This document shows, in pieces, positions 36,699 through 64,000 of a DNA stretch of 64,000 bases. Positions within the stretch are counted from its first letter, which is position 1. Each line of letters begins with the position of its first letter. The DNA lies in NCBI RefSeq assembly GCF_025353885.1, contig NZ_JANXNX010000113.1, positions 1 through 64,000 of the forward strand, given 5' to 3'. The stretch comes from Sphingomonas sp. (GTDB lineage Bacteria > Pseudomonadota > Alphaproteobacteria > Sphingomonadales > Sphingomonadaceae). The translations under genes were made by a program, and so were the position numbers. Below the pieces are notes generated by a model. It did no database searches. It was not told the DNA's origin and saw nothing but the letters and a program-made list of their open reading frames with translations.

Positions 36699-36799
36699 GG
36701 ATGACCTCATAGCGCCTTCGATATGAACGGCAAGTTGCGGGCGGTTCGCCATGCCATCGACAGCGGGCACTTTTCATTCGGAAAATCGGGGCTATATTG

Positions 36800-37110
36800 A
36801 ACGGGTCGGGGTTTCGGCCCTGAATATGGCGATAAATGATGCCGTGAAATAGATGCAGCGGACCCGGGGGCGGTACCCGGCGGCTCCACCAAAATCAGCT
36901 TCCTCGGCTGATCCTGATGGGGCCGAACTAGGATCGACGTGTATTGAAAGACGGTATTTTTGCCAGGCCTGAATGCGCCTTAAAACCGTTCAAAACGATA
37001 AGTGCCAACGATAACGAGGTACTCGCAATCGCTGCATAACAGAGTCCTTCTGGGATAATGTTATGAAGTGTTAGCGCGGTTCGGGCCGCACCGGGCAACA
37101 GAAGCGGAAA
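36800..37110 (+). ncRNA. ssrA: Circularly permuted two-piece tmRNA
   Basis: The alphaproteobacterial permuted arrangement is explicit. The acceptor piece ends GGCTCCACCA at 36891, with a T-arm (CCGGG, 7-nt loop GGCGGTA, CCCGG). A 27-nt spacer (36892-36918) forms the hairpin ATCAGC/GCTGAT and should be removed. The coding piece begins GGGGCCG at 36919, which pairs over 7 bp with CGGCTCC of the acceptor. The tag reading frame runs from GCC at 37004 to TAA at 37037 and encodes ANDNEVLAIAA, ending AA as proteolysis tags do. Outer boundaries are approximate: the 5' end of the acceptor and 3' end of the coding RNA cannot be fixed by eye. It rescues stalled ribosomes with SmpB. Confidence 0.93.
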
Positions 37111-37148
37111 CCGGCGGTACGGGGAGCACCGAGCAACAGAAGCTCCCC
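37086..37148 (+). repeat. Twin hairpins with near-identical 14-nt loops
   Basis: Hairpin 1: CCGC (37086-37089), loop ACCGGGCAACAGAA, GCGG (37104-37107). Hairpin 2: GGGGAGC (37121-37127), loop ACCGAGCAACAGAA, GCTCCCC (37142-37148). The loops differ at one base while the stems differ completely. It lies after the tmRNA tag and before a small lipoprotein gene, so it is either the 3' part of the ssrA precursor or a leader element of that gene. Confidence 0.6.
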
Positions 37149-50858: not shown

Positions 50859-51575
50859 TTGACGCTGGCGGCAGCCAGCCCCATCTCGGTGCTTGAACGT
50901 CGACAGGAGTTATGTGACGCTGACGCGAGCCAGGCAGATAACTGCAGCAAAGTCGCCAGATCACCCCGGACCAACTTGTTGCTGTCCGGAGCGATTGAGG
51001 CAGGGGACCTGAAGGGTGCTGTAAGAATCAAAAATCTTTCGGAGACTGGTGCCCTGCTGGAGGGTGCGGCGTTGCCTCGTGTCGGCGAACATTTGACTTT
51101 AAGGCGATTGGATCTTGAAATCGGTGGCGTGGTTGTCTGGCAGGCGAACGCGCGCTGTGGCGTGAGATTTGAGGGAAGTATTTCGGTGGCCGGTTGGCGC
51201 AGGGGCACGTGGATCCCCCAGCTAGCCACCAGCGACCAGGCGCGCGTTGACCAAATTCAGGCATCTGTCCGTGCGGGACAAGTTGTTAGCCCGGCTGCCA
51301 ACACTTTAAAAAGTGATCCTGCCACGCTTGGGACCAGCAGCAACATCACCATCGCCCGCGAGTTGACGGCTTTGCAAAAACTGCTGGACGATATGGGCGA
51401 GCAACTCAGTGATGATGTTGCTGTGTTAAAGACCCATGGAGTGACGTTGCAAAAGTTCGACGTGGCAAGCCAGATACTGGGCCACCTGGCCAACGTATTG
51501 TCTTCTGGGGATCGATCCTCGGCTATTGACGCGATCGGAATGAACGAATTACGTTCCAGATTGCTTGAGAGCTAA
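50859..51575 (+). CDS. PilZ domain protein
   Basis: A protein of up to 238 residues. Residues about 40-120 form a PilZ-like beta barrel: an Arg-containing segment ARSPRTNLLLSG, then RIKNLSETGALLEG (the N/DxSxxG motif), VGEHLTL, and VVWQANARCGVRFEG. This suggests cyclic-di-GMP binding, though the RxxxR motif is not canonical. The C-terminal 100 residues are helical (ARELTALQKLLDDMGEQLS) and not recognised. The start is unclear: a TTG at 50859 gives the longest frame, and a GTG at 50889 is possible; neither has a good ribosome binding site. It stands alone, with no cyclase or phosphodiesterase nearby. Confidence 0.7.
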   Translation: MTLAAASPISVLERRQELCDADASQADNCSKVARSPRTNLLLSGAIEAGDLKGAVRIKNLSETGALLEGAALPRVGEHLTLRRLDLEIGGVVVWQANARCGVRFEGSISVAGWRRGTWIPQLATSDQARVDQIQASVRAGQVVSPAANTLKSDPATLGTSSNITIARELTALQKLLDDMGEQLSDDVAVLKTHGVTLQKFDVASQILGHLANVLSSGDRSSAIDAIGMNELRSRLLES

Positions 51576-53787: not shown

Positions 53788-55353
53788 TCAGGGCGCACCT
53801 AAAGCTTGCGCCGCTGCTTTTACGGCGTCGAGTTGCTCGGGGAATAGTGGTGGTCGTACCGTGACACCGGCGTTGCCGATTTCCAATATGGTAGTCTGGC
53901 CTGGCGCGTAGGCAGGCCAACGAACGTTCGCCGAGGTTCCTGGCGCGCCGGTCTTGGCGAAATTTGTCCAGTAAGTCTGCATCGCTTCGGCGATCACTCG
54001 GTCCTCGGCGCTCGCTGCAGGAATGAGCCGGCCGCCCAAGCGCGTCGCCACGGCAGGCAACGCAGTAAAGACATAGGGCACTTCAGCGCCGTGAACCGCA
54101 CCGGGTTCGGCGCCTCGCAAAGCTTTGGGGACATACGAAAAATAGTAGCGGAATATCGGCATGCCCGCATCCACGCCTTTATCCGCCAGATAGCGATCCG
54201 GCTCAGTCATCAGTGAAACAGTAGCCAGGTTGAACGCCGCCCGCATGGCATCGCCCTCTCCGAACAACTGGATCGCCTTTTCCTGAGAAATCCCGCTACG
54301 TTTGAAAACCGCGCTAGGATTGGCACTTATGACCAACGCAAAAAGGCTGGATTCAAAGCTGTTGCCGCCAAGCAGATAAGGAATTTTCATTTGGTGGCCT
54401 TTTGCAAAAGCCATATCGGTGCGTTCCCGAATAATGCGTCCGTCGATCATCGGCTTGGGTATGGCTGGATCAAGCAAAGTAACGGCTTCACCCAAAACTG
54501 CGTTCGTCGAAAGCGCCCGGAGGGCTGACGCGGTCCCGGCGCCGTCGCCGGTAATTCCTTGTCGAGTTGCAAACGCGATGCCGCTCGCTTCGGCGGTGGC
54601 CAGGGATGGCGGATCGGTTCGTCCGAAACCCGACTGGGCGATTGCCTTGACGAACAAACCCCTCGCTTCAGGTGTCGTCATCAAAATATTGACAGAAATC
54701 GCGCCCGCCGATTCGCCGAAGATAGTCACGTTCTCGGGATCACCGCCGAACGCAGAAATGTTCTTCTTGACCCATTTGAGTGCCGCAATTTGATCCTGTA
54801 TTCCATAATTGCCGATTGGCTCGAGATTGGAGCGAACGTCGATTGCCGGGTGCGCGAAAAAGCCGAACCTTCCCAAACGATAATTGAAGCTGACCAGCAC
54901 CACGTCCCTGCCGACGAACGGCGTGCCATTATAAAAGGGCGAGGCACTGGATCCGACAACGAAGCCACCACCATATATCCAGACCATGACCGGCAAGCGC
55001 TTGTGCAAATGATTGCGCTTCGTCCACACATTGGCGGTCAGACAATCCTCGCTCTGGGTGTTTCCTCCATCAAGACCGCTCTTAGCCTGAACGCACGACG
55101 CGCCGAACGCGGTGGCAGATCGAATGCCGGACCATTTGACGACCGGCTGTGGCGCTCGCCAGCGGAGCGATCCGACGGGCGGAGCGGCAAACGGAATTCC
55201 CTTAAATGCGGCGACGTCGCCTTCGAGCGTGCCCTGAATCGTTCCATCGGCTGTCATCACCCGATCCATCGACAATTGGTCCTTTGCCGAGACTTCCCTT
55301 GTCGCCATCGAAAGCACGAACGCGGCGAACCCCAGTCTGATCAGTTTACCCAC
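53788..55353 (-). CDS. Exported type-B carboxylesterase
   Basis: A 521-residue alpha/beta hydrolase of the carboxylesterase/lipase family. A signal peptide (LIRLGFAAFVLSMATREVSA) places it in the periplasm or outside. The nucleophile is Ser215 in FGESAGAIS, the oxyanion hole is GGG at 128-130, and Cys87/Cys104 are placed for the family's first disulfide; EDCLTANVW and the C-terminal catalytic His region (AVHGAEVPYVF) are present. The start is GTG at 55353 with AAGGAAG upstream. It is the last gene of the TonB receptor-propeller-PQQ dehydrogenase-esterase series, and could release an alcohol or acid from an ester for oxidation; substrate unknown. Confidence 0.9.
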   Translation of the reverse strand: MGKLIRLGFAAFVLSMATREVSAKDQLSMDRVMTADGTIQGTLEGDVAAFKGIPFAAPPVGSLRWRAPQPVVKWSGIRSATAFGASCVQAKSGLDGGNTQSEDCLTANVWTKRNHLHKRLPVMVWIYGGGFVVGSSASPFYNGTPFVGRDVVLVSFNYRLGRFGFFAHPAIDVRSNLEPIGNYGIQDQIAALKWVKKNISAFGGDPENVTIFGESAGAISVNILMTTPEARGLFVKAIAQSGFGRTDPPSLATAEASGIAFATRQGITGDGAGTASALRALSTNAVLGEAVTLLDPAIPKPMIDGRIIRERTDMAFAKGHQMKIPYLLGGNSFESSLFALVISANPSAVFKRSGISQEKAIQLFGEGDAMRAAFNLATVSLMTEPDRYLADKGVDAGMPIFRYYFSYVPKALRGAEPGAVHGAEVPYVFTALPAVATRLGGRLIPAASAEDRVIAEAMQTYWTNFAKTGAPGTSANVRWPAYAPGQTTILEIGNAGVTVRPPLFPEQLDAVKAAAQALGAP

Positions 55354-55461
55354 GTTACTTCCTTCCTGTTACTGACAACGGGCCTTGCGCCGACGATGAG
55401 CAAACCACGATAGCCGGAGGCACTGCTTTGCGGTCAACAGACACGTCACCAGACGTGTTTG

Positions 55462-57501
55462 TCACTTGAGGCTACGCACGGGCAGCGCAAACGCCATGAC
55501 GGAATCGCCGGTTTTTGTGCCGGTAAAAGCGTGACCTCCAGCAGCAATCACGACATATTGCCTTCCATGATAAATATAGGTCATCGGGGTTGCCTGCCCC
55601 CCGGCCGGAAGGCGACCTTTCCATAGCTCCCGGCCATTGGAGACATCGAAAGCGCGAAGATAATTATCGAGTGTGGCGCCCAGAAAGATCAGGCCGCCTC
55701 GGGTAATGGCAGGGCCGCCGACATTGGGCGTTCCAAACGGAAGCGCAATTCCCGCGGGGGCAAGGTCCCTCGTGGTTCCTATGGTCCTTCGCCAGACGAT
55801 TTTTCCGGTCGAAAGGTCTACCCCTGCCATGACGCCCCATGGTGGCGGGCTGCAGGGCAAGCCCAAAGGCGAGGCAAGCATCCCGCGCGACATGGTGTAG
55901 GGCGCACCTTCCATTGGGGCCGCTTCTGCGCGGTCGGTAATGGGACCGGTTTTTCTGCGGTCCAACTCTTTCACGTTCAGTCGGGAAAAAGACGCGACAT
56001 TGCTAAGATTCACCACCATTAAATTGCGACTGGCGTCGTAAGCCGCGCTGCCCCAATTGGCGCCTCCCCCGTAAAAAGGATAGGCCAGTGTGCCCTTGAC
56101 GGTCGATGGGGTAAAAAGGCCATCGCCTCGCAAGTTCTTGATCTTGTTCGAGCAAGCCAGCTTGTCCCACAAGGTTATGCCAAATGCGTCGGCGGGGTTC
56201 AGCCGATCATTGACCAAAAGCGGAGTATTAACCGGGAAAGGCTGGGTCGGCGAGAGGACCTCTCCGGGGACACCGCCTTGCGGAACGGGCCTTTCCTCGA
56301 CCGGTAGAAACGGTTTGCCGGTATCGCGGTCGAGAACGAAAACCATCCCGGTCTTCGTAACCTGGGCGACAACGTCATGCGCCTTCCCACCGCGCCAAAC
56401 CTGATAAAGCCCCGGCTGGGCGGGGACATCAAAATCCCATAAATCGTGATGCACCGTCTGGAATTGCCAAATGACTTTCCCCGTTTCGGCATTCAGCGCG
56501 ACGACGGAATTCGCATAGCGATTGTCACCCACGCGATTGCCGCCATAATAATCCGGGCTCGGGCTGGAGGTCGGAAGGAAAACCATTCCGCGTTCTTCAT
56601 CCACCGAAATGGTCGACCAAATATTTGCATGACCCGTTCCTCTGGCGGAATTTCCTGCCCAATTGTCCGCTGCGGGGTCATTCGGATCCTGGGGTATAGG
56701 ATTGAACTCCCATTTCAGGGCACCGGTGCGCGTGTCATAGGCATGAACCGTGCCCAGCGGTGCTTTAGTCCGAACGCTGTCGGTGATCGCCGACCCGGTA
56801 ATGACGGTATTTCCTATGATGGCGGGCGCCGAGGTGATTTGATATTCTCCCGGCCACACCAAGGGTTCGCTTGGTCTTACTTGGACCTGGCCTTGTTGGC
56901 CGAAGTCGGGGCAGGGCTTCCCAGTAATCGCATCAAGGGCAATTAGTCGTGAATCTACTGTGCCCATAAATATCCGTGAGGCACATAGGCTGCCCACGCT
57001 GGACTGCGTTCCTTTCCAGTAGGATACGCCTCTGCAATTATACTGGTTGCCTGGTTTGCGGTCGGTCGAGATTTTAGGATCGAACCGCCACAATTCGGTT
57101 CCCTTTGCCGGATCGAGTGCAATAACCTGATTAAACTGGGTGCACAGGACAAGCATGTTTTCGACAAGAATGGGCGTGTTTTCGAAAGCCGACGATCTTC
57201 TAACATTTTCGTGCCCGCGAAAGGCGCCCGTGTGGAATTCCCAAGCTGTTTCCAGATTTTGGACATTGGCCGGGGTAATCTGGTCGGCCGCCGAAAAACG
57301 TGTTCCTTTCCCGTCACCCCCATAGGCTGCCCAGCCTGTGGTGAACCCGCCCGGCAGCGGCCTCACAATCTCAGCCCGGCCGTCGATCGTGAGATCTTTG
57401 GTTAGGCCCAACATATTCCAGAATGCCGACCCCCCAAGAAAACTGATGGCAATGAAGGCGCCGACAAGAATGGCGAAGAGTTTGATTCGGGTTCGTTTCA
57501 T
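55462..57501 (-). CDS. Membrane-anchored PQQ-dependent dehydrogenase, mGDH-like
   Basis: A 679-residue eight-bladed PQQ propeller facing the periplasm. One N-terminal membrane helix (about 8-30) replaces the five helices of E. coli Gcd. Family signatures include GWAAYGGDGKGTRFSAADQI, YNCRGVSYWKGT with SLCASRIFMGTVDSRLIALD, HHDLWDFDVPAQPGL and GMLASPLGLPCSPPPWG, which group it with glucose/quinate-type dehydrogenases. No haem domain is fused, so electrons go to quinone or to a separate carrier. Between the propeller lipoprotein (63 bp) and the esterase (108 bp). PQQ synthesis genes are not in the window. Substrate unknown. Confidence 0.9.
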   Translation of the reverse strand: MKRTRIKLFAILVGAFIAISFLGGSAFWNMLGLTKDLTIDGRAEIVRPLPGGFTTGWAAYGGDGKGTRFSAADQITPANVQNLETAWEFHTGAFRGHENVRRSSAFENTPILVENMLVLCTQFNQVIALDPAKGTELWRFDPKISTDRKPGNQYNCRGVSYWKGTQSSVGSLCASRIFMGTVDSRLIALDAITGKPCPDFGQQGQVQVRPSEPLVWPGEYQITSAPAIIGNTVITGSAITDSVRTKAPLGTVHAYDTRTGALKWEFNPIPQDPNDPAADNWAGNSARGTGHANIWSTISVDEERGMVFLPTSSPSPDYYGGNRVGDNRYANSVVALNAETGKVIWQFQTVHHDLWDFDVPAQPGLYQVWRGGKAHDVVAQVTKTGMVFVLDRDTGKPFLPVEERPVPQGGVPGEVLSPTQPFPVNTPLLVNDRLNPADAFGITLWDKLACSNKIKNLRGDGLFTPSTVKGTLAYPFYGGGANWGSAAYDASRNLMVVNLSNVASFSRLNVKELDRRKTGPITDRAEAAPMEGAPYTMSRGMLASPLGLPCSPPPWGVMAGVDLSTGKIVWRRTIGTTRDLAPAGIALPFGTPNVGGPAITRGGLIFLGATLDNYLRAFDVSNGRELWKGRLPAGGQATPMTYIYHGRQYVVIAAGGHAFTGTKTGDSVMAFALPVRSLK

Positions 57502-57564
57502 ACTGAGACTATCACGATCCGTAGAACCCGACCATTCGAGCCGCGCCGCGCAAAGCCTTGCCCG

Positions 57565-59292
57565 TCAAAGGGGTTTTATCCGCACGAAAGCGGAACTGCC
57601 GCCCTCTATCGTCGCCGAGGGATATTGTGAATAACTGGTCCAAACGGTCCCGTCCTTGCCGAAATTTATTTCGCGGCAAAAGGTGACATGGCTGGGGAGC
57701 TGATACGTCACGACTTTTCCCGTTGCCGGATCGAGATGCATCATCGTGTCCGAATTGGTGCCGCAGGCCCAGACGCTATCATCGCGGGGATCGACGGCAA
57801 GCGCATAAACCGCGTCTCCCTTGCCCGTCGGCAAATCGAAGCGCGTGAATTTGTTCGCAGCTGGGTCGTATTTGTAGATATTTCCTTCCGCATAGGAGGG
57901 GATCCACAAATTCCCCTTCGAGTCCGACCGGAAACGCCGGGGACCGCCAAAGGGCGTACCGATCATTTTAAACTTTTTTGTCTTTTTGTCGAAATAGCCG
58001 ATGCGGCGACTGTTGAACTGGCTGAACCAGATTTTGCCATCGGGCGTGACGGCAATACCGTAAGGGATAGCGTTAATTTCGTCCTGCGCGGCGATAACAT
58101 CGTTACCTGCGCGCTGCTTCAGCATCTCCTGCATGGCGCGTGCGGGATTGGCCGCGTCGGCTTGAACTTGTGTGCGCGTTGGCATTGCGTAGAGGACAAT
58201 CTTGTCCGTTACAGGGTCGATCGTTCCAAGCTGATTCGTATGGCTGACCGTAAACCAAAGCTGCCCGTCTTTGTCGAACCGCATGGTGTGCGGATACAGG
58301 CCGGCAGCGTATGACATCTCATACACCTTCATCTTGTTAGTGGTGACGTCTAGGCTCGCAATCATATTGCCCAAGGCATAGGTGAACCACATTTTTCCAT
58401 CGGGACCCTGCAACACCGTATGCAGCAGCAACGGTGAGCCCTCGGGCCGGTTCTTTGGCCTGAGGTCGGCCAACTCCTTGATCTCGTTGGTTTTCGGATT
58501 CAGGCGCCAGATGTTGCTGCCAATTGTGTCTACGCCATAGATATTCCCGTCGGGACCGACGGCAACGTCGTGCATGCTGTGCGTACTGTCTTTCAGTCGC
58601 CATTCGGTAATTTCGACGTGGGTGGCCGTGCCGCTCGGCGCGTCGGGGATACGCGGCATCCCCAGCTTTCCCTGATAATCAAACGCGGCGGTCAGCGCAT
58701 CGGCCATGCCGTCCCGGGTTTCCCGGGTCAGCAGGGCACGCGTGCCCTTGTTTGCCATGCGCTCATAAACGCCAGCCCAATCGGCGCGCCCCTTGTGAAT
58801 GCGGGTATTGGGATAGCCCATCTGGTGACACATCATGCACTGCACGCGAAACTCCGTATTCATGCGGGCGGTGGGCACGTTGATCCGCTCGGCCCACACG
58901 TTCGCTGGCAAGTCCGCGAGCAATTGTTCCTGAGATGCAGGCACCAGGCTTGCCTCAATCTCTTTCATGCCTGGTTTCAGATCGAGCAACTGATCGGCAA
59001 AACCGACGTGGCGGACACGAACCTTGTTTTCATCGCTGGCAATTTCGGGAAAACCGACCCGGCCGTCCTTGTCGGTATACCGGGTGGTCAGTCGCAGTTG
59101 GCTGTTGTCCACCACGGTTACCAGCGCGCCTTCGAGCGGCGCACCCTTGTCGTCCATGATTTTGGCTATGAATTTGGCATTTGACATTTCGCCGACGCGG
59201 CCGGAGCCAGCGTCATTCATGCCGTTTTGACATGCCGCAACGACCAAAAGGCTTGCGCTCGCAAACGCTGTCCAGGGTGTTTTAGTGCGCAT
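57565..59292 (-). CDS. Vgb-like propeller lipoprotein with carboxypeptidase-regulatory-like domain and CXXCH haem site
   Basis: A 575-residue exported lipoprotein (lipobox LVVAAC, Cys21). Domain order: a CarboxypepD_reg-like beta sandwich (about 40-115; DKGAPLEGALVTVVDNSQLRLTT), a small helical segment with a c-type haem motif CMMCH (152-156) and WAGVYERMANKG downstream offering a possible axial Met, then a virginiamycin-B-lyase/NHL-like propeller (about 220-570) with repeats such as GPDGNIYGVDTIGSNIWRL and TPDGKIWFSQFNSRRIGYFD. Lyase activity is not implied by the fold alone. Beside a PQQ dehydrogenase, an electron-accepting or substrate-binding role is a reasonable inference. Confidence 0.85.
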   Translation of the reverse strand: MRTKTPWTAFASASLLVVAACQNGMNDAGSGRVGEMSNAKFIAKIMDDKGAPLEGALVTVVDNSQLRLTTRYTDKDGRVGFPEIASDENKVRVRHVGFADQLLDLKPGMKEIEASLVPASQEQLLADLPANVWAERINVPTARMNTEFRVQCMMCHQMGYPNTRIHKGRADWAGVYERMANKGTRALLTRETRDGMADALTAAFDYQGKLGMPRIPDAPSGTATHVEITEWRLKDSTHSMHDVAVGPDGNIYGVDTIGSNIWRLNPKTNEIKELADLRPKNRPEGSPLLLHTVLQGPDGKMWFTYALGNMIASLDVTTNKMKVYEMSYAAGLYPHTMRFDKDGQLWFTVSHTNQLGTIDPVTDKIVLYAMPTRTQVQADAANPARAMQEMLKQRAGNDVIAAQDEINAIPYGIAVTPDGKIWFSQFNSRRIGYFDKKTKKFKMIGTPFGGPRRFRSDSKGNLWIPSYAEGNIYKYDPAANKFTRFDLPTGKGDAVYALAVDPRDDSVWACGTNSDTMMHLDPATGKVVTYQLPSHVTFCREINFGKDGTVWTSYSQYPSATIEGGSSAFVRIKPL

Positions 59293-59349
59293 TATCAGCT
59301 CATCCCGTTTTGATCGTTGCGGAGAGGTCTCCTCGTTCCCGTAGTCAGG

Positions 59350-61842
59350 TCAGAACTTAAAACGCCCCGTTATTCCGTAGGTTCTCGGGTCGTTTGGATA
59401 GCCTGTCACACTGCCAGGCTGCGCAACAGCATCGCCGACCGCAGTGTAATAACGTGTGTTGAAAAGGTTGCGGGCGTAAACAGATAATTCGAATCCGCTG
59501 TTCAGCGCGAGCGTTGTTGACGCATTCACCAGATTGACTTCACGAGTGAACATTTTCGCAGCAGCAAACCCGGCGGCTTGTGAGAACCCCGAAAAACCCC
59601 GGACGATCTGGACTTTTGACTCGTGCAGATAGTCCATTCGGAGCGACAGCTTGGTGCCGTCGTTGAATTGATGTGTGTAGGATCCGCCAGTCGAAAATGA
59701 GAATGTCGGAATGCCGGTCGGCTTCTCTCCCGACAAGTCGCCGTAAGGTGATCCAGTGAAAGAGTCATATCTATTGTGGAGATAGGTCATCGCGAAGAAA
59801 AGACTAAGTGGTTTGACTGGATTGACTGTCACATCCAGTTCGGCGCCGCGCGCAGTCCTGCTGCCCGCATTGGTCAACGCAAAACCAGTGCCCGTAAATG
59901 CTACGCTTTGAAAACCTTTGATCTGCTGATCAAAGACAGCAAGGTTGAAGGAGCCAAAATGAAAATTGCCCTTCAGGCCAACTTCGAAAACTCTTGAATT
60001 TTCAGGACCTGCAAAACGTGTGCCGGTGGTCAGGTTCGGCAACGCAAGACCTGCGTCACGGACGGGGGAAGACGGTGGCGGCGGACTAGACGCCGGCGAT
60101 CCCGGGATGAATATGGACGCCGGTGGACGGGAATCCTGCGAGACGTTGAATGAACTCGCCTTGAATCCGGTTGCGTATGAAACATAGCCGTTGAGATGGT
60201 CGGAAAACTTGTAGGCGGCGCGCGCCGTATAGGACAGCTTGCCGTCCCTTGTCTTGCCGCTCTCCACCGCATTTGGAAAATTCAGGAACGGCGGCAGGAA
60301 TTGCAGTCCTTGAAGGGGAAGCAGCGGGTTGGCCGAGGTGTTGGCCAACGCCGGCGGCACACCGAGTGCGACTCCCAGCGCAACCAGATCGATCGCCGAA
60401 AAGGCATCGGTCGTAATTACGTTGGAAATCGCGTCCTTTTCATCCTTGGTATACGCCAGCCCGCCCGTCAGGGTAATTCGGTCGGTAACCTTGTAATCGA
60501 CTGTGCCGAACACCGAATAGGTTCGGTCGTTCACGCGATAGTTGTTCGTGTCACCAACGCCGGGCTGCGTGAAGGTGTTGACCGGGAGGCCAAGGATACT
60601 CTCTACGGCCCTGATGCCGCCCTGTGATAGTATGTTAAGATAAGGCCTGGCATCCCTGCCAAACAAATTGCGATCTTGGTGCTTTAGTTTTTCATTATAA
60701 TAAAAACCGCCGACGACAAAATTTAATGGTCCATCGAAATTAGAGACAAGCCGCAGTTCTTGCGAGAATGTATTGATGTTTGTGTCCGTCAGATTGTCAC
60801 CCAATATGTCAGCCGGGCCCAAGTCGCCGTCGCTGATAGAATTGGATTTGAATTCTCGATAGGCGGTGATTGACGAAATTGTCAGGTGTCCCAAGTCGTA
60901 ATCGATATGGCCGGAAGTCCCGTAATTCTCGATCAGGTTTCGTGCGACGATGTTGTTGCGGGTGGTATCAGAAAAGGGCATATTCTGAATGATGTGGCCG
61001 CCCGAGGCGATGGCGTCGATAGCGGGGCCCGTAGGTCCATAAAGCGCATAGACGGAAATGCAGCAATTTTCGTCTATCTTGTCGTAATCTGCAATTAAAC
61101 GGATCTTTAAAGCGTCGGTGGGGTGGAACAATAACTGTCCACGAACGCCGTAACGATTGCGATCGTTGAATTTCGCGCGGGTATTCAAGTCGCGTGCATA
61201 ACCGTCGCGGCTATTGTAATTTCCCGACAGCGAGAATGCTACCTGACTAGTGATCGGCCCGGTCACGTCGCCCTTTAGGACGACTTGGTTGAAGTTGCCG
61301 TAGGTTGCGGAAACCGAGCCGCCATACTTGAATTTCGGCTCTTGCGTGATCACGCTGACCACGCCTGCGGAAGCATTCTTGCCGAAGAGGGTGGATTGCG
61401 GCCCGCGCAGAACCTCTACCCGCTCCACATTTGGAAGGTCGCTGACCTGAGCGCCTCCGCGCGGCCGATAAACGCCGTCAATGAAAACGCCGACCGACGG
61501 CTCGATACCGGGGTTGCTGCCGCCGTTGCCGAAACCACGAATGCTGAAGCTCGTACTGATAAGATTTTCGTTTTGAGATACAGCCAGTGATGGGACAAGC
61601 GTTTGAATATCGAGCAAATCGCGAATCTGTGCGTCTTCGATTGCTTTCTTGCCAACGACAGACACCGCTATTGGCGTTTCCTGAAGTGTGGTTTCGCGTT
61701 TGGTCGCGGTCACGATGATATCATTAGGGTCGTTGGCTTCGGTGCCTTTAGCGACGCCCGGATTACCTGAATTTTGAGCCAAGGCCGGGCTGCTCACCGC
61801 AAGCGCCAGCAACGAGCCTCCCAAAAACTGCGTGATACGCAT
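59350..61842 (-). CDS. TonB-dependent outer-membrane receptor
   Basis: An 830-residue receptor that imports a ligand with TonB energy. A signal peptide (LGGSLLALAVSSPALAQ) precedes a TonB box region DIIVTATKRET, a plug domain (about 60-165; SFSIRGFGNGG, VERVEVLRGPQSTLFGKNASAG) and a 22-strand barrel ending in a C-terminal aromatic strand (RTYGITGRFKF). GGGAGGGG lies upstream of the ATG at 61842. It is the first gene of the esterase/PQQ series and probably takes up the substrate of the pathway. The sequence fits the large catabolic receptor class of sphingomonads rather than typical siderophore receptors. Ligand unknown. Confidence 0.93.
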   Translation of the reverse strand: MRITQFLGGSLLALAVSSPALAQNSGNPGVAKGTEANDPNDIIVTATKRETTLQETPIAVSVVGKKAIEDAQIRDLLDIQTLVPSLAVSQNENLISTSFSIRGFGNGGSNPGIEPSVGVFIDGVYRPRGGAQVSDLPNVERVEVLRGPQSTLFGKNASAGVVSVITQEPKFKYGGSVSATYGNFNQVVLKGDVTGPITSQVAFSLSGNYNSRDGYARDLNTRAKFNDRNRYGVRGQLLFHPTDALKIRLIADYDKIDENCCISVYALYGPTGPAIDAIASGGHIIQNMPFSDTTRNNIVARNLIENYGTSGHIDYDLGHLTISSITAYREFKSNSISDGDLGPADILGDNLTDTNINTFSQELRLVSNFDGPLNFVVGGFYYNEKLKHQDRNLFGRDARPYLNILSQGGIRAVESILGLPVNTFTQPGVGDTNNYRVNDRTYSVFGTVDYKVTDRITLTGGLAYTKDEKDAISNVITTDAFSAIDLVALGVALGVPPALANTSANPLLPLQGLQFLPPFLNFPNAVESGKTRDGKLSYTARAAYKFSDHLNGYVSYATGFKASSFNVSQDSRPPASIFIPGSPASSPPPPSSPVRDAGLALPNLTTGTRFAGPENSRVFEVGLKGNFHFGSFNLAVFDQQIKGFQSVAFTGTGFALTNAGSRTARGAELDVTVNPVKPLSLFFAMTYLHNRYDSFTGSPYGDLSGEKPTGIPTFSFSTGGSYTHQFNDGTKLSLRMDYLHESKVQIVRGFSGFSQAAGFAAAKMFTREVNLVNASTTLALNSGFELSVYARNLFNTRYYTAVGDAVAQPGSVTGYPNDPRTYGITGRFKF

Positions 61843-62210
61843 AATCGTTCCCCTCCCTTTTACGCCACCTGCTCGTTCAGCACGTGGTCATTTTGTAAAT
61901 CTATTTCATATTCGATATTCTGGAACAAGCTAGAAAAAGCGCCTGACCAATTAATTGCATTTGCGTTTGTGAAGCGGGGGTGAGTGAGAACGTCGCGGCC
62001 GTCGCACGATGGGCATTCGGGCAAATCGCGGGTCGTCGTGTATAACGCAGCGAAACCCTAGGTTTTTCAATTCGACGGACGATCCGGCATCTGTAGACCG
62101 GCGTAACGGCAAGGTTAGCGACGGTGGAGCGGCGCTCGCAAGATAAGCAGGCTCACTGGCCGGACGCAGGCTGCAGTCCGCCGAACAGCCGAAATGCACT
62201 TGATCCTACG
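61843..62210. other. Promoter region of the TonB receptor operon
   Basis: A 368-bp gap between the receptor start and the TetR stop. The 61880-61970 part is notably AT-rich (for example TATTTCATATTCGATATTC) and should hold the operon promoter and a TetR operator. No clear symmetric operator was identified. The 61970-62210 part has no recognisable gene. Confidence 0.5.
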
Positions 62211-62843
62211 CTATGGAGCCAATGCGTTTTGAGGGCGCGCAAGGCTGTTCAAGCTTGCCACACAAATTGAATCCATCAGCCGATCAGATGTCATGCCCTT
62301 GATGGAGGGCACCCACTTGGCAAGCCAAATGAGCATTCCCAGGAGAAGTTGCACAACCACCTTTGGTTCGCAGGGGACAACCGTACCGTCGCTGATGCCT
62401 TCTTCAAGGAAGCGCTCAAACATGTTCGTTAACCGCTCGATCCATTCGCCGACGTGTTCGCGCTGCGCAACCGCGAGAAAGGAATAGTCCCCGAAGTAGA
62501 GCTGCGGTCCGTTATGCTCGGCGTCGTGAAGCATGCCTGCGATGAACAGCTTTAGCTTTGCAAAGCCTGACGTGCCATCAGCTTCGGCCTCGCCGAGTAG
62601 GCGTTCGAATATTTCGAGCGAGTGTATCTGGCACGCGTAAGCCAGCGCCTGCTTATTCTCGAAATAATAATAGAGCGTCGCATCGCGAAGATCCAGGCCA
62701 GCTGCAATCTCGCTCATTGTCGCTAGCGCGTAGCTCTTGACGTTGATCACCTTGATCGCAGCACGAATGATCGCAGCGCGCTTTCGATCTGACTTTCGCT
62801 GTTGATGCGAGATTGCGGGTTTAGGTGAGACGGGCGCGGCCAT
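62211..62843 (-). CDS. TetR-family transcriptional regulator
   Basis: A 210-residue regulator (from the ATG at 62843). The N-terminal helix-turn-helix is clear: KRAAIIRAAIKVINVKSYAL, TMSEIAAGLDLRDATLYYYF and ENKQALAYACQ. The ligand-binding C-terminal domain has a TetR_C pattern (GEWIERLTNMFERFLEEGI). It is upstream of and in line with the TonB receptor operon, whose control is the likely function. An extended start at 62876 (TTG) is possible; GGAG is too close to it. Effector unknown, plausibly the pathway substrate or an acyl-CoA product. Confidence 0.88.
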   Translation of the reverse strand: MAAPVSPKPAISHQQRKSDRKRAAIIRAAIKVINVKSYALATMSEIAAGLDLRDATLYYYFENKQALAYACQIHSLEIFERLLGEAEADGTSGFAKLKLFIAGMLHDAEHNGPQLYFGDYSFLAVAQREHVGEWIERLTNMFERFLEEGISDGTVVPCEPKVVVQLLLGMLIWLAKWVPSIKGMTSDRLMDSICVASLNSLARPQNALAP

Positions 62844-62990
62844 GCGTGCTCGTAGCCGATCAACTGGCTGCCACAAGCTCCAATTTTCCAGCTGTCATAA
62901 ATATTTAAGGGCGCAATAGGATTGGTTATTTCGCGACCAACGTCTCGGCCAGCCATTTCAGCGTGCAGACTTGCGCCTCGCGCGTTGCGC

Positions 62991-63389
62991 TCACGAAGCA
63001 TCCGCCCTGAACGCGATCGCCTCCACCTCGATCAACCATTCGGGCATTACCAGCGCCGCCACCGCGATCAGCGTCGACGCGGGACGGGCGCCTTGTAGAA
63101 ACGGCTCACGGATGCTTGCCAGGGATCGCGCATTGCCGATGTCGGTGAGATATGTTGTAATCTTGACCGAGTCATGGATGGTCATGCCGTCCGCAGCCAG
63201 GATTGCAACGATGTTGCGCCAGCATTGGCTCGCTTGCTCGGCAAAGGTGCGGGGCGTCTTTCCTTCGAGGCTAATGCCGAGTTGCCCCGATACGTATAGC
63301 GTCCGACCTGTGCCGCGGGTTGACACTGCATGGCTGTAGGCACCCAGGGGCGGATGAACGCCCTGCGGCACGATGGCTTGGTTGGTCAT
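62991..63389 (-). CDS. RidA/YjgF-family protein
   Basis: A 132-residue member of the RidA superfamily, which deaminates reactive enamine/imine intermediates or has related hydrolase roles in catabolic operons. It carries PPLGAYSHAVSTRGTGRTLYVSGQLGI and the helical middle QASQCWRNIVAILAADGMT, then STLIAVAALVMPEWLIEVEAIA. The canonical active-site Arg found in RidA deaminases (typically in CxxR/SR near the end) is not evident: the matching segment reads ARPASTLIAVAAL. It may belong to a non-deaminase Rid subgroup. GGAGAA lies upstream of the ATG at 63389. Confidence 0.88.
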   Translation of the reverse strand: MTNQAIVPQGVHPPLGAYSHAVSTRGTGRTLYVSGQLGISLEGKTPRTFAEQASQCWRNIVAILAADGMTIHDSVKITTYLTDIGNARSLASIREPFLQGARPASTLIAVAALVMPEWLIEVEAIAFRADAS

Positions 63390-63438
63390 GGCTGTTCTCC
63401 GATCGCGTGGTTCTCGCGGCGCGAGACATGGCTGGTGA

Positions 63439-64000
63439 TCAAACCCGCAGATACCGAAAATACCACACCTCATGCCCCAGCCGCCGCGCCTTGCGTTCGT
63501 AGCGGGTCTCGACCCAGTCATCGGGGCGCGTCAGGAAATCGTGGGCGGCTTCGACCTGCCATGCAAAATCGCGCCGCGCGCCCATGATCATCATCGCGTG
63601 GGCGACATAGATCGGGTGATCGGTCCCGAACCGAAACTCCCCGCCGGGTTTCAGCTTGGCGGCAATCATGTCGATCGGGCCGGTGTTCATGAACCGCCGC
63701 TTGGCATGACGCGCCTTTGGCCACGGATCGGGGTGGAGCAGATAGACCGTCTCCAGCGACGCATCGGGCAGGCGGTTCAGCACGTCAAGCGCATCCCCCA
63801 TATGCAGCACGACATTGGTCAGGCCGCGTTCGTCGATATGCTGCAAGGCACCGACCATCCCGTTCAGGAACGGTTCGCAGCCGATAAACCCGCTGCCGGG
63901 CCGCATCCCCGCCTGTCCCGCCAGATGCTCGCCCGCGCCAAACCCGATCTCGAGCTCCAGCGGGCGATCGTCACCGAACAGCGCGACCGCGTTCAACGGC
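63439..64000 (-). CDS. trmB: tRNA (guanine-N7-)-methyltransferase, partial at window edge
   Basis: Methylates G46 of the tRNA variable loop with SAM. The visible 187 codons include motif I ELEIGFGAGEHLAG, the acidic GFIGCEPFLNGMV, and LLHPDPWPKARHAKRRF (motif IV-like), ending WYFRYLRV. The frame is open to the right edge, and the family usually has about 45-60 residues before motif I, so the start lies beyond position 64000. The coding part seen is intact. Confidence 0.93.
   Translation of the reverse strand, partial: PLNAVALFGDDRPLELEIGFGAGEHLAGQAGMRPGSGFIGCEPFLNGMVGALQHIDERGLTNVVLHMGDALDVLNRLPDASLETVYLLHPDPWPKARHAKRRFMNTGPIDMIAAKLKPGGEFRFGTDHPIYVAHAMMIMGARRDFAWQVEAAHDFLTRPDDWVETRYERKARRLGHEVWYFRYLRV

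Follow-up and report, generated by a model that had tools for sequence, protein, structure and literature searches.

A putative catabolic cassette with a TonB-dependent receptor, a haem-propeller protein and a PQQ dehydrogenase in a Sphingomonas genome

On a contig of Sphingomonas sp. (NZ_JANXNX010000113.1, NCBI RefSeq assembly GCF_025353885.1), four neighboring minus-strand genes encode a TonB-dependent receptor, a propeller lipoprotein with a predicted haem c site, a pyrroloquinoline quinone (PQQ) dehydrogenase and a carboxylesterase. The locus raises the question of whether the four proteins serve one pathway. We analyzed positions 1 to 64,000 of this contig, referred to as the window, together with the genome around it (2.76 Mb, 117 contigs, 98.2% complete). 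A sequence-only reading had assigned these families, with a CMMCH site in the Vgb-like propeller, a membrane anchor on the dehydrogenase and an exported esterase, and had given intergenic gaps of 57 bp (receptor/propeller), 63 bp (propeller/dehydrogenase) and 108 bp (dehydrogenase/esterase). The coordinates agree with this layout, and Pfam and NCBIfam matches together with the motifs agree with the assignments.

We propose, with confidence that is about evenly balanced, that the genes form a catabolic cassette, acquired horizontally and controlled by TetR. The receptor would import an organic ligand into the periplasm, and the carboxylesterase, where present, would take off an acyl group. The quinoprotein dehydrogenase would oxidize an alcohol group of the product using PQQ from the surroundings and pass the electrons to ubiquinone, as in Gcd of E. 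coli. The haem c/Vgb-propeller protein would catalyze a second oxidation or cleavage step in the periplasm, and its haem would hand electrons to the respiratory chain. We infer this reaction order and electron route from the sequences.

Recurrence of the block in a second bacterial class

Support for this proposal comes from a Glaciecola metagenome-assembled genome (MAG) of another class, in which the TetR regulator, receptor, propeller and dehydrogenase genes recur as one block (53, 63, 69 and 72% identity, respectively). There, a divergent TetR gene comes before those of the receptor, propeller and dehydrogenase; the gaps in this block measure 85 and 43 bp. The dehydrogenases of the window and of Glaciecola are sisters in the tree (support 99/98). 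No esterase was found at the Glaciecola locus within a stretch of 21.6 kb. The recurrence of three of the four genes plus the regulator in an unrelated marine bacterium supports a real functional unit. The sequence-only reading had joined import, ester hydrolysis and PQQ-dependent oxidation in the periplasm; uptake and periplasmic PQQ oxidation gain support from this co-conservation across the class boundary, whereas the esterase step, absent in Glaciecola, is weaker.

The composition of the genes differs from that of the host. The cassette genes, including those of TetR and the esterase, have a guanine-cytosine (GC) content of 53–57.5% against about 62% for the host, and their GC content at third codon positions (GC3) is 0.60–0.69 against 0.73 ± 0.06 for the other open reading frames (ORFs) of the contig. 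The Glaciecola block, by contrast, has for the most part a higher GC content than its flanks, namely in its receptor, propeller and dehydrogenase genes. Both the low GC here and the high GC relative to the flanks there fit lateral transfer. The gene set is thus probably a horizontally acquired, TetR-controlled cassette to which the esterase was added, with transfer possible in either direction. An ORF of low GC3 (0.607) also lies outside the cassette, at 50859–51575 of the window.

Several points weigh against the proposal. The scan of the contigs of named genomes, which reaches close relatives only, returned a single other complete core block, that of the Glaciecola MAG. In other genomes, members of the close dehydrogenase clade stand without cassette partners: relatives at 62–70% identity are present in 9 of 401 family genomes, and the other cassette genes were not recognized beside them. 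The link of the esterase to the set is weaker, through adjacency, co-orientation and similar GC in one genome, and the proposal does not account for the supply of PQQ. Co-occurrence, which the sequence-only reading had expected of the four families, is therefore seen in part: the block is shared across a class boundary, but with just one other genome, and the distant propeller family appears without PQQ enzymes.

Propeller matches in the sampled genomes of the window's family, class and phylum, and in others of Glaciecola's family, were all below 40% identity. None of the six other genomes of the genus had a dehydrogenase match at E ≤ 1e-180; the propeller was sampled in four of these, with E 9e-4 at best. 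A dehydrogenase on a plasmid of Agrobacterium T29 (63% identity) was rejected as a further block, since no other cassette gene was matched in the stretch read; an aldehyde dehydrogenase gene comes after it. A TraB/PrgY/GumN-family gene lies close to the dehydrogenase relatives at loci L107, L108, L109 and L111, and a YncE-like propeller protein (locus L106, 12209–13216) is encoded one gene away from a 70%-identical dehydrogenase.

The dehydrogenase and the haem-propeller protein

The dehydrogenase shares its whole catalytic propeller with Gcd and the other membrane glucose/quinate/shikimate PQQ dehydrogenases. In the alignment, residues D354, W404, D426, D466, K493, N607 and H775 of E. coli Gcd are kept, with D466 and K493 corresponding to D356 and K383 here. 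D466 and K493 are the catalytic Asp and Lys of Gcd, and its metal and PQQ residues are retained as well. N355 of Gcd is replaced by Ser, and H262, which has a role in glucose use, by Gln153; a Gln is also found in the three other aligned non-E. coli proteins. Because the catalytic and metal/PQQ residues are kept and H262 has become Gln, cofactor binding is expected, and glucose is less expected as the substrate. The match to TIGR03074 reaches 718 bits, below the cut-off of 833, and covers only model positions 151–783, without the N-terminal membrane domain. Unlike Gcd, which has several membrane helices in that domain, the dehydrogenase has in its place a single N-terminal hydrophobic helix without a lipobox, and its gene is placed with those of a receptor and a haem-propeller.

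The propeller protein carries CMMCH at residues 152–156 and a lipobox, VAAC, at residues 18–21. Its closest homologue, the Glaciecola propeller, has no lipobox and begins with an ordinary hydrophobic N-terminus. In an alignment of the protein with 11 relatives (alignment A1), C152, C155, H156 and M179 are invariant in all 12, and Met179 is a candidate distal haem ligand. Altogether, the 12 sequences agree fully at 30 positions with charged, polar, aromatic, Cys or Met residues; 22 of these positions follow the haem segment. Such invariant residues make the chemistry of the propeller directly testable. The protein belongs to an unnamed and unstudied family with an invariant CxxCH.

The haem segment is helical and contains both the CxxCH and the invariant Met. 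Its profile gave weak matches to SorB (E 3.5e-4), which is the cytochrome subunit of sulfite dehydrogenase, and to quinohaemoprotein amine dehydrogenase (E 0.0017); a fold search with the haem-domain model gave no PDB match at E ≤ 0.001, with SorB listed at E 5. For the predicted model of the propeller protein (predicted local distance difference test, pLDDT, 80), the best PDB match is virginiamycin B lyase 2z2n, with a template modelling score of 0.89 on the target. The propeller fold and the Pfam Vgb_lyase match are thus shared with the Vgb family. In contrast to that family, the propeller here is fused to carboxypeptidase-regulatory and haem c domains, the identity in the fold match is about 16%, and the NCBIfam exception model for Vgb(A)/(B) gives 66–67 bits against a cut-off of 600.

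Elsewhere, the propeller gene keeps different company. In six relatives from Glaciecola's family, the Alteromonads, it occurs with genes for an AraC regulator, an SBF symporter, an epimerase, an MFS transporter and an SDR, and a receptor gene lies near it at some of these loci. All six clusters (L053, L054, L055, L056, L058 and L059) read AraC, SBF symporter, epimerase, haem-propeller, MFS, SDR; to our knowledge, no function is assigned to this arrangement. In another genome of the window's family, the propeller gene is near AraC-type genes, an SDR, an MFS transporter, a zinc alcohol dehydrogenase and a luciferase-like monooxygenase. No PQQ enzyme was recognized in these other propeller-family stretches. 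Since the family sits elsewhere in clusters without PQQ enzymes, the propeller protein is probably more than an electron carrier of the dehydrogenase. Tentatively, and with more doubt than confidence, we suggest that the haem c/Vgb-propeller fusion could be a periplasmic oxidoreductase or lyase of a class not described so far. It would form the core of TonB-receptor-linked catabolic modules in Alpha- and Gammaproteobacteria, and its partner dehydrogenase would be exchanged from one lineage to another: SDR and epimerase in Alteromonads, a PQQ dehydrogenase here.

Alternative explanations

The propeller protein might instead simply serve the dehydrogenase as its own electron acceptor, the part that cytochrome c550 (PedF/ExaB) plays for PedE/ExaA. 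The two genes are adjacent in both genomes, the mono-haem c domain has the weak cytochrome and amine dehydrogenase matches described above, and in the ped system a cytochrome gene adjoins the quinoprotein gene (PMC12997753). However, the propeller family lacks a recognized PQQ enzyme at the other loci read, the dehydrogenase occurs without the propeller, and the roughly 20 polar or aromatic residues that are invariant in the propeller point to a function of its own. Gcd-type enzymes, moreover, reduce ubiquinone directly. We consider this explanation unlikely, and a role solely as acceptor, while possible, ranks below a second reaction by the propeller protein. It is least probable that the genes are chance neighbors with separate functions. 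The lone dehydrogenase genes of related genomes and the missing esterase in Glaciecola would fit this, but the receptor–propeller–dehydrogenase order with a matching TetR in two classes, at 53–72% identity, and the low GC common to all five genes argue against it.

Another explanation is that the cassette scavenges a cofactor, with the receptor importing PQQ, or a metal for the dehydrogenase, into a host that has the enzyme and no PQQ synthesis. No PqqE was found above the cut-off in this genome, by a search that finds it in 18 of 115 class genomes; PqqB was found neither here nor in the Glaciecola genome, while the same search finds it in two other genomes. A PqqC search was dropped as evidence, with no match even in control genomes. 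The cassette dehydrogenase is the sole strong PQQ-family dehydrogenase match in either genome, a second match being short and weak and possibly BamB. TonB-dependent import of PQQ by PqqU is established in E. coli (PMC12124388), and lanthanides are imported by LutH in a methylotroph (PMC12997753). Like PqqU, the cassette receptor is encoded near a PQQ enzyme, in a genome where PqqB and PqqE were not found, and among the many receptors of each of the two genomes it scores highest against the PqqU model (NF041535). This match, however, covers the plug region only and reaches 55–66 bits against a cut-off of 1200. The PqqU signature is an aromatic residue at 99, Arg304 and Arg365 (PMC12124388), and the receptor has Pro at Y99 and Ser at R304, the barrel alignment including R365 being uncertain. 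On score and signature, we rejected the receptor as PqqU. Nor was a receptor recognized beside the nine other dehydrogenase genes of the clade, and we regard cofactor scavenging as very unlikely. Since searches gave neither PqqB nor PqqE and the PqqU signature is lacking in the receptor, PQQ is apparently taken from outside, made by neighbors.

If the catabolic cassette is real, the haem-propeller catabolic modules, as yet unstudied as a family, gain a version that depends on PQQ. It would also mean that a bacterium in which searches for PQQ synthesis genes gave no match keeps a single strong PQQ dehydrogenase, apparently using the PQQ of its neighbors.

Substrate, regulator and neighboring genes

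Relatives of the receptor occur on plasmids of Sphingomonas, Sphingobium, Novosphingobium and other Sphingomonadales, which points to sphingomonad kinship of the host. Their contexts range from housekeeping genes on a Sphingomonas plasmid to a rhamnosidase cluster and were set aside as a guide to the substrate. A paralogous receptor–TetR pair in the same genome (locus L073, 7779–16462) has 43% identity in the receptor and 54% in the TetR, which is divergent from its receptor. This pair adjoins a PtlE-like monooxygenase (784 bits, below the cut-off of 1100), an SDR and an aldehyde dehydrogenase, and a P450 fragment lies beyond these; on its other side are an SMP-30 protein, a sugar transporter and an IlvD/Edd-type dehydratase. 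By analogy with these neighbors and with the AraC/SDR/epimerase/transporter clusters of the propeller family, the substrate is perhaps a cyclic alcohol, its ester or a terpenoid-like (alicyclic) compound; a sugar-like compound is also possible. The esterase has a GxSxG nucleophile motif (GESAG) at 213–217, and bacterial carboxylic ester hydrolases and fumonisin B1 esterase are among its nearest relatives of known structure.

In the literature searched, no paper joined a receptor, a PQQ enzyme and a Vgb-type lyase. The pvaAB operon encodes a PQQ-dependent polyvinyl alcohol (PVA) dehydrogenase and an oxidized-PVA hydrolase (PMC3184429), and so likewise places a hydrolase gene beside that of a PQQ dehydrogenase in the degradation of an organic substrate. 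The enzymes here are of the Gcd type and the type-B carboxylesterase family, set apart by family descriptions, and are joined by a receptor and a haem-propeller. In the ped/exa alcohol oxidation clusters (PMC12997753), a c-type haem protein likewise accompanies a quinoprotein dehydrogenase, and pedA2 encodes a PQQ-associated propeller protein. In contrast, the dehydrogenase here is of another type, haem and propeller are fused, and TetR and a receptor replace the PedS2/PedR2 system.

Table 1. Features of the locus in window coordinates
Feature	Coordinates	Strand	Evidence
TonB-dependent receptor (830 aa), heading the block	59350..61842	-	Pfam plug E 1e-20, barrel E 7e-28
Propeller lipoprotein: CarboxypepD_reg, mono-haem c-type domain and Vgb-like beta-propeller	57565..59292	-	Pfam Vgb_lyase E 5e-33
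Single-transmembrane membrane PQQ dehydrogenase, C-terminal part of the glucose/quinate/shikimate type	55462..57501	-	PQQ E 1.5e-230
Exported type-B carboxylesterase, accessory	53788..55353	-	COesterase E 2e-106
TetR-family regulator, presumably acting locally; GC low as in the block	62211..62876	-	TetR_N and TetR_C_24
TetR–receptor intergenic region, 368 bp, presumed promoter and operator	61843..62210	.	Inverted repeat; putative operator

The cassette genes may be co-transcribed, and regulation would involve the region between TetR and receptor genes. A script detected an imperfect inverted repeat, CCACGTGCTGAACGAGCAGGTGG, in this gap shortly 5' of the receptor start, and we regard it as a putative operator. 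No motif was shared with the corresponding intergenic regions of Glaciecola or the paralogous pair, and a scan for promoters and terminators gave no more sites than in shuffles.

The sequence-only reading had also placed TetR and RidA genes just upstream. The TetR gene, on the same strand and low in GC, fits the unit, whereas RidA falls outside it. Pfam assigns the RidA family to the listed ORF at 62991–63521; since this start overlaps trmB, the true start is most likely near 63389. The GC of RidA and trmB is host-like, so that RidA belongs to the host flank, and RidA is missing from the Glaciecola stretch. Further away in the window, ARAGORN places a transfer-messenger RNA gene at 36796–37130, with the tag ANDNEVLAIAA and an asterisk that possibly marks the permuted type.

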